NCBI RefSeq assembly: GCF_028330985.1
Contig: NZ_JAQMUE010000072.1
Coordinates: 62,001-126,000, forward strand
Direction of reading: 5' to 3'
Source: Roseofilum reptotaenium CS-1145
GTDB taxonomy: Bacteria; Cyanobacteriota; Cyanobacteriia; Cyanobacteriales; Desertifilaceae
Length of the DNA: 64,000 bases
Below the pieces are notes generated by a model that saw only the letters and a list, made by a program, of their open reading frames with translations, was not told the origin of the DNA and searched no databases. A program made the translations under genes and the position numbers. Numbering within the stretch: the stretch's first letter is position 1; every line of letters begins with the position of its first letter. Of the stretch, positions 9,375 to 9,955 are shown one piece after another.

Positions 9375-9589
9375 TAATCAACAAAATTGTAGGATGCGTT
9401 GATAATCTCAGTACAGGACAAAAAAGTTGAAAAGGATGCAAGGAGAGGGTTTGATGGAAGTTAGCACAACACTAATCAGACCCTCATGCAATACAGTGAC
9501 TCCATTCGAGAGCAATGACGATCCCATCTGGGCTGGCATGGAGACAGACTCTCCTTGATCGCCTTGTTCATTATCGTTGTGTTCCGAGC

Positions 9590-9706
9590 TATAGTCATTT
9601 TAATTAAGATTGACACACCAAGATTTATCTACAACAACGGTATCTGTAGGGGCGAACGGCCGTTCGCCCCTACAACCATGTCCCATCCTTAATTAAAACA
9701 ACTATA
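9590..9706. mobile_element. MITE-like element with 23-bp inverted ends and TA target duplication
   Basis: The left end at 9590-9612 begins TATAGTCATTTTAATTAAG and the right end at 9684-9706 is its inverted counterpart (19 of 23 bases match). TA is present at both outer ends (9590-9591, 9705-9706). The interior is only about 70 bp, has no coding capacity, and contains the perfect palindrome at 9645-9674. The insertion splits an IS4-type transposase reading frame that becomes continuous when the element and one TA are removed, which is direct evidence that it moved as a unit. TA duplication is typical of IS630/Tc1-type transposition. Confidence 0.7.
9645..9674. repeat. 30-bp perfect palindrome, dispersed GTAGGGGCGAA family
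   Basis: The arms are TGTAGGGGCGAAC and its exact complement around a GGCC centre. This copy is perfectly symmetrical and forms the middle of the MITE-like element. Related copies at 9928, 16590, 17983, 29855 and 59758 have an A/T-rich centre instead of CGGCCG. Confidence 0.8.
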
Positions 9707-9879
9707 AAACTGTGAACCTAGCTGAACTGGCGAGTGTCTGGGGAGGAAGAAGTACCGAAGCGTCAAACTATCCCTCTTCTGTCAAACTGGGAAAACATTT
9801 GTCTTGACTGACTTCTAAAACTCTTGCAGTATCGGCGATCGCGACATTTTTTCCTAACAGAAACTCGAAAATCCAGTCA

Positions 9880-9919
9880 TACCCTTTCCCATGAAGCTGA
9901 GCTTCATAGGGAAAGGGTA
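9880..9919. repeat. 18-bp hairpin with TACCCTTTCCC arms
   Basis: Bases 9880-9897 (TACCCTTTCCCATGAAGC) pair with 9901-9919 with one bulged base and a 3-nt TGA loop. It sits just before another GTAGGGG-type palindrome in the non-coding graveyard between cruP and the phosphohexomutase. It has no T-run of a terminator and is more likely a repeat or mobile-element end. Confidence 0.5.
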
Positions 9920-9927
9920 TTACAACA

Positions 9928-9955
9928 GTAGGAGTGAAAAATTTTTCGCCCCTAC
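9928..9955. repeat. GTAGGGG-family palindrome, one degenerate arm
   Basis: The 3' arm TTTTTCGCCCCTAC is intact, while the 5' arm reads GTAGGAGTGAA with two changes. The centre is AAAAATTTTT. The rest of the 630-bp gap (9375-10007) holds the IS4 remnant, the MITE and the 18-bp hairpin; I see no intact gene in it. Confidence 0.7.

Follow-up and report, generated by a model that had tools for sequence, protein, structure and literature searches.

What is the 117-bp unit that interrupts a transposase remnant in Roseofilum reptotaenium CS-1145, what moved it there, and does the GTAGGGG palindrome at its core take part in the movement? We addressed these questions in the window, that is, the whole 64,000-nucleotide stretch of DNA that was analysed, and in the genome it comes from, a draft assembly of 5.67 Mb in 113 contigs (G000). 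The unit has exact coordinates (Table 1), its termini being TATAGTCATT...CAACTATA and its sequence reading TATAGTCATTTTAATTAAG...CTTAATTAAAACAACTATA; it is non-coding. The preliminary description had seen imperfect inverted ends with TA at both borders and the GTAGGGG palindrome as the core. Both are borne out: the palindrome is perfect, and the two ends agree at 22 of their outer 28 bases, a level that, at 117-bp spacing, only position 9590 reached among the 63,883 window positions tested. Since no other window position shows such an end match, we rejected a chance palindrome as the explanation of the unit.

Table 1. Coordinates of the features at the MITE locus, counted from the first letter of the window (a dot stands for no strand)
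Feature	Position	Strand	Remark
MITE copy including both target TA dinucleotides	9590..9706	+	117 bp; body of 113 bp at 9592-9704
Left target TA copy	9590..9591	.	Placed from the junctions of other copies, seen at their seven orthologous empty sites
Right target TA copy	9705..9706	.	Based on the same seven junctions as the left TA
Left terminal inverted repeat, 28 bases with TA	9590..9617	+	22/28 against the right end
Right terminal inverted repeat, 28 bases with TA	9679..9706	-	28/28 and 27/28 against the resident IS630 ends
Core palindrome GTAGGGGCGAACGGCCGTTCGCCCCTAC	9646..9673	.	28 bp, perfect palindrome
Remnant of a probable IS4 transposase, left part, in-frame stop inside	9405..9589	+	89% to uninterrupted paralogue L032
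Remnant of a probable IS4 transposase, right part, ending at about 9771	9707..9771	+	Match to L032 carries on past the MITE site
Truncated second dispersed mini-element, unrelated to the MITE, ends CCCTCTTCTGTCA	9769..9879	.	90-95% at ten other places in the same genome

The host sequence shows that the unit is an insert. Without the unit and one TA, SHLGWHGDRLSLIALFIIVVFRA runs on into KTVNLAELASVWGGRSTEASNY in a single frame, and six uninterrupted paralogues in three genomes, namely L032 in the same genome and five others in G001 and G003, lack the MITE; an IS4 copy with the same intervening sequence, which would have made it a normal part of the gene, was thus not what we saw. At the target position all six paralogues have CA, where the window has TA. 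The earlier claim that removal exactly restores a transposase reading frame holds locally and no further: the remnant has an in-frame stop upstream of the MITE and is cut at its 3' end at about 9771 by another mini-element, so what is restored is no more than a local frame in a host gene that was already dead. The assignment of the remnant to the IS4 family is probable, as suggested by a weak match of a 111-aa paralogue fragment (a reading typed by eye) to NCBIfam NF033591 (E 2.8e-8, 33 bits, the whole-protein cut-off being 152); Pfam gave no match.

The surroundings of the remnant are themselves a nest of small elements. The second mini-element has more matches in the genome at lower identity or shorter length, and among its copies L033-L037 seem to be complete; their ends are CCCTCTTCTGTCA / TGACAGAAGAGGG, and by eye they measure somewhat below 200 bp. 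Directly after it lies an imperfect hairpin, ATACCCTTTCCCATGAAGCTGAGCTTCATAGGGAAAGGGTAT, at 9879-9920, and next, at 9928-9955, comes a degenerate GTAGGAG...CCCCTAC palindrome. The nest at 9407-9922 sits at a synteny break: its left (to 9406) and right (from 9923) flanks lie on different contigs of G001, and they match different contigs in G002, G004 and G005 too.

The unit belongs to a multi-copy family, as expected for the MITE that the preliminary description had taken it to be. A search of the same genome gave 62 matches, most of them the palindrome and little else. Among 81 loci fetched or read, 14 were full-length copies (113-128 bp, as judged by alignment to one of two sequences), which split into two subfamilies of seven, A (including the window copy) and B; the "part" class of these alignments is untrustworthy because the core alone drives them. 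The window copy is identical to G000:C103:8067-8183, three further copies are 96-98% identical to it, and other genomes of the genus hold copies as well, one in G004 at 96%. The family is thus a set of short non-coding units with terminal inverted repeats in many copies, as in type I MITEs.

Empty sites in sister strains, which had been proposed as a check, show how these units insert. We searched the six genomes of the genus with the joined flanks of 15 copies and found exact-junction empty sites in sister G001 for seven copies (L097, L012, L016, L028, L029, L022 and L025) from both subfamilies. The target dinucleotide was TA in six and GA in one, and it is duplicated on insertion. As for the other copies, L011 was left out of the count for an alignment with only seven bases on one side, L017 is occupied in G001 too (flank matches 97 bp apart with a MITE match between them), and for the remaining six we claim no spanning G001 alignment. 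For the window copy, the flanks of which lie on different contigs in G001, G002, G004 and G005, we found no empty site at the orthologous place; its empty sites are therefore the paralogous ones, with a CA target rather than TA. The draft state of the assembly could lead one to suspect that the repeat arose in assembly or reflects chance base composition. However, the copies have differing flanks, their empty sites in another genome are exact and a single window position reaches the end match, and we give this explanation next to no credence, the empty sites refuting it.

The TA duplication had been read as pointing to an IS630/Tc1-type transposase, and the genome indeed holds one. On contig C53, two matches to the MITE ends lie 949 bp apart. 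They delimit an intact IS630 element, whose 949 bp include both TAs and which carries an intact 282-aa ORF. Its product matches PF01710 (IS630 helix-turn-helix, 7e-48) and PF13358 (DDE_3, 2e-27), passes NF033545 with 117 bits against a cut-off of 100, and has a D-to-E spacing of 34. The two ends of this element match each other over 26 bases, and the right end of the MITE matches them at 28/28 and 27/28 positions, so that an autonomous element present in the genome shares its ends with the MITE. The left end matches them at 22/28 and 21/28, and this is one point against a resident partner: only the right end is close, the left differing at 6 or 7 of 28 bases. The left end starts like an ISY100-type element of pSYSA, TATAGTCATTT. 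That element is 950 bp long, its ends (TATAGTCATTTCAATTAACGATGAGAGA and TATAGTAGTTTCAAATAAAGCTGAGACG) are of the same kind as those of the MITE and start TATAGTCATTTCAATTAA, like the MITE left end, and its protein differs from the C53 transposase at an identity of about 70%. Only one intact element of the C53 kind was present among the six PF01710 hits in the genome, and no closely matching partner for subfamily B was found among these hits. In G004 no relative of the C53 transposase was found at E 1e-20 despite the 96% MITE copy, and the partner there has thus been lost, is unassembled or is a different one.

The C53 element falls into the ISY100 group by its 282-aa IS630 transposase with an N-terminal helix-turn-helix and a DDE domain and by its length close to 947 bp. 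ISY100 (ISTcSa) of Synechocystis sp. PCC 6803, an IS630/Tc1-mariner element, is 947 bp long with 24-bp repeats and a 282-aa transposase and inserts at TA (PMC2170065, in part). The two transposases are thus equal in length, the elements differ by no more than about 2 bp, the TA target and the DDE domain are alike, and the ends are of the same imperfect, 24-bp class; unlike ISY100, the window MITE has no transposase gene. We assign the MITE to the IS630/Tc1-mariner type because the resident IS630 element has matching ends and resembles ISY100. In the same source, ISY100 mini-transposons that keep 30 bp per end are as active in transposition as the complete element, and cleavage occurs two bases inside the 5' ends (PMC2170065, in part). 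By analogy with this biochemistry, the 282-aa D,D34E transposase of the sole intact 949-bp element would most likely bind the 24-28 bp MITE ends, excise the MITE and insert it at TA, which would thereby be doubled; the 28-bp GTAGGGG palindrome would ride along and is probably not required for transposition. It is very likely, in our judgement, that the window unit is a non-autonomous MITE of the ISY100 group of IS630/Tc1-mariner elements, most likely moved by the resident transposase, with the palindrome as a passenger. That it is a recently mobile MITE of IS630 type is confirmed; it is ordinary in kind, and its presumed palindromic passenger is notable.

The core starts with GTAG, as do the GTAG REPs of cyanobacteria, and it is conceivable that a tyrosine transposase (RAYT/IS200-type) acting on the GTAG palindrome spread the unit, the outer repeats being merely its target. 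One protein of the genome indeed exceeds the NF047646 cut-off for REP-associated tyrosine transposases (84.3 against 80 bits, in a scan of two Y1 proteins out of nine Y1_Tnp matches), and in A. variabilis GTAG-15 dimers are inserted within TATAGGA...TCCTATA palindromes (PMC3733652, in part). However, the unit that inserts here is the whole 117 bp with its TA borders, not the palindrome. The stretches examined around the NF047646 gene (L138 / L043, G000:C86:9099-9437) contained no GTAGGGG...CCCCTAC palindrome, so the repeat does not flank the gene there, and the motifs of its protein (NHYH, YIHLNP) fit, by eye, subclass 2.1, which is tabulated as lacking REPs in the part of PMC6006769 that we cite. 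Furthermore, where a GTAG REP has an unpaired GTAG next to its stem, GTAG is paired inside the stem of the window core with no unpaired foot, and GTAG-CTAC forms the outermost four pairs in 25 of 25 distinct 28-mers, a pairing that the selection pattern demands. The core is therefore not a typical GTAG REP. Neither MITE shells without a core nor exact empty sites for the core alone were found here. At L038, which has an IS605 pair, a palindrome lies about 100 bases from tnpA, but it is a differing one. We consider spread by a RAYT hardly credible, weakened as it is by the palindrome-free NF047646 locus and the subclass 2.1 motifs.

The origin of the many palindromes outside the MITE is a separate question. 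Matches to the pattern GTAGGGGN{4,30}CCCCTAC number 78 in the genome, the reversed pattern giving 2, and a stricter palindrome pattern is present in 49 of 386 cyanobacterial genomes, with up to 140 in one genome. The preliminary description had suggested that the dispersed palindromes may be relics or parts of MITEs. From 14 copies (L017 and 13 that are full-length) we built a profile of the MITE arms, which we ran on the 51 palindromes of the genome outside the training set, with 2,983 random window controls. Nine palindromes outscored all controls, with clear arms on one or both sides, one of them (L025) being a full-length copy left out of the training; four more were marginal, above the 1% cut; and the other 38 had no MITE arms by the profile. 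An earlier alignment-based split, less sensitive than the profile, had placed 22 of 69 palindromes above the maximum of 400 shuffles, 12 of the 81 loci having been left out for want of a palindrome under a loose pattern. The suggestion thus holds for a minority: some lone palindromes are MITE relics, and most show no sign of a MITE origin.

Armless palindromes could also be compared with their sister sites. Four of 41 loci were dropped for having no strict palindrome, and for 18 of the 37 tested the sister stretches fetched did not contain both flanks. In 15 of the 19 with both flanks, a GTAGGGG palindrome or near-palindrome was present at the sister site. W59758 showed a degraded palindrome there and L104 a related one; at L091 the sister site came out empty and at W17984 it held other sequence, neither being clean by eye, so that these 19 loci gave no clean empty site for a lone palindrome. 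Since the armless palindromes are mostly at the same place in the sister, they are older than the recent MITE insertions. One could still hold that all dispersed palindromes are decayed MITEs with the arms worn off and the palindrome kept, a reading that would leave the nature of the window unit unaffected. The palindromes with clear or marginal arms agree with it, and MITEs (L028, L029) share core types, the asymmetric GCGAAAAATATGCAAGC among them, with lone palindromes (L093, L115). Against it, most palindromes are armless, several armless ones sit in flanks well conserved in the sister, and, while such palindromes occur in 49 cyanobacterial genomes, the MITE matches listed outside the genus were the core with little flank. 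We regard decay of MITEs as the sole origin as improbable, though well short of negligible, and have rejected it in part.

Some features of the palindromes themselves are worth recording. In the armless pairs, with L091, L104 and W17984 left out of the sums, differences from the sister amount to 33 in 188 bases of the centre, 115 in 1,903 of the flanks and 12 in 256 of the outer stem, 9 of these 12 coming from one locus, W59758. Between this genome and G001/G005 the rate of change in the centre is thus about threefold that in the flanks, and the outer stem is kept. The centre of L093 is identical to that of L115 and unlike that of its own sister copy. Inner pairs covary in 25 distinct 28-mers (16 cells with both sides changed; none of 500 shuffles as high), a result to be read with the outer seven pairs fixed by the pattern and with kin sequences able to beat such shuffles without structure. 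Homology tends to stop near some palindromes, and does so exactly at the palindrome in 2 of 7. Where the genome has palindrome L098, L258 (G001:C54:8750-10450) has about 1.3 kb between the flanks, with an open frame of 271 aa that is ankyrin-like by eye.

The SDR repeats of cyanobacteria described by Elhai et al. 2008 are reportedly small dispersed palindromes with paired stem changes. GTAG REPs (PMC3733652, in part) are likewise small, dispersed and cyanobacterial with paired stem changes; unlike them, the present palindromes have GTAG within the stem, and no palindrome-flanked RAYT gene was found. A literature search for the letters TAGGGGCG as a cyanobacterial repeat found nothing, and among the papers that another listed for Roseofilum with MITEs, insertion sequences or transposable elements, none named Roseofilum. 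Nezha (Zhou et al. 2008) is said to be similar in size to the present MITE and to have a TA-type target. Both are cyanobacterial MITEs, the likeness being one of description. Nezha is a MITE of Anabaena variabilis, as cited in parts of PMC3733652 and PMC10969869. Anabaena sp. 90 has 147 MITEs, classed as type II because no IS matches them (PMC3542288, in part), whereas the present family has one.

A published parallel is the GTAG-15 nest of A. variabilis, which is likewise a GTAG-type palindrome within a long TATAG...CTATA inverted repeat. In the part of PMC3733652 that describes it, as here, shells without the palindromic core were not found. The nest differs from the window unit in holding a REP dimer and in having a shell of other sequence. 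Section 7 of that paper does not describe the shell as a transposon, nor does it report a partner IS or empty sites. By analogy with the window MITE, the outer palindrome of A. variabilis is probably a MITE, and the published nesting of GTAG repeats in TATAG...CTATA palindromes may thus have a plain reading.

Taken together, the locus provides a clear case of an ISY100-group MITE in filamentous cyanobacteria, with a partner element and exact empty sites. It is tempting to speculate, on grounds that leave the idea quite improbable at present, that the GTAGGGG palindrome is a separate module that ISY100-type MITE shells take up, carry and seed, cores being exchanged with the dispersed pool and left behind when shells decay. 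If this were true, a REP-like palindrome without a transposase of its own would spread by riding an IS630 MITE, and transport by MITEs would be a testable answer to how palindromes without a known transposase reach dozens of copies.
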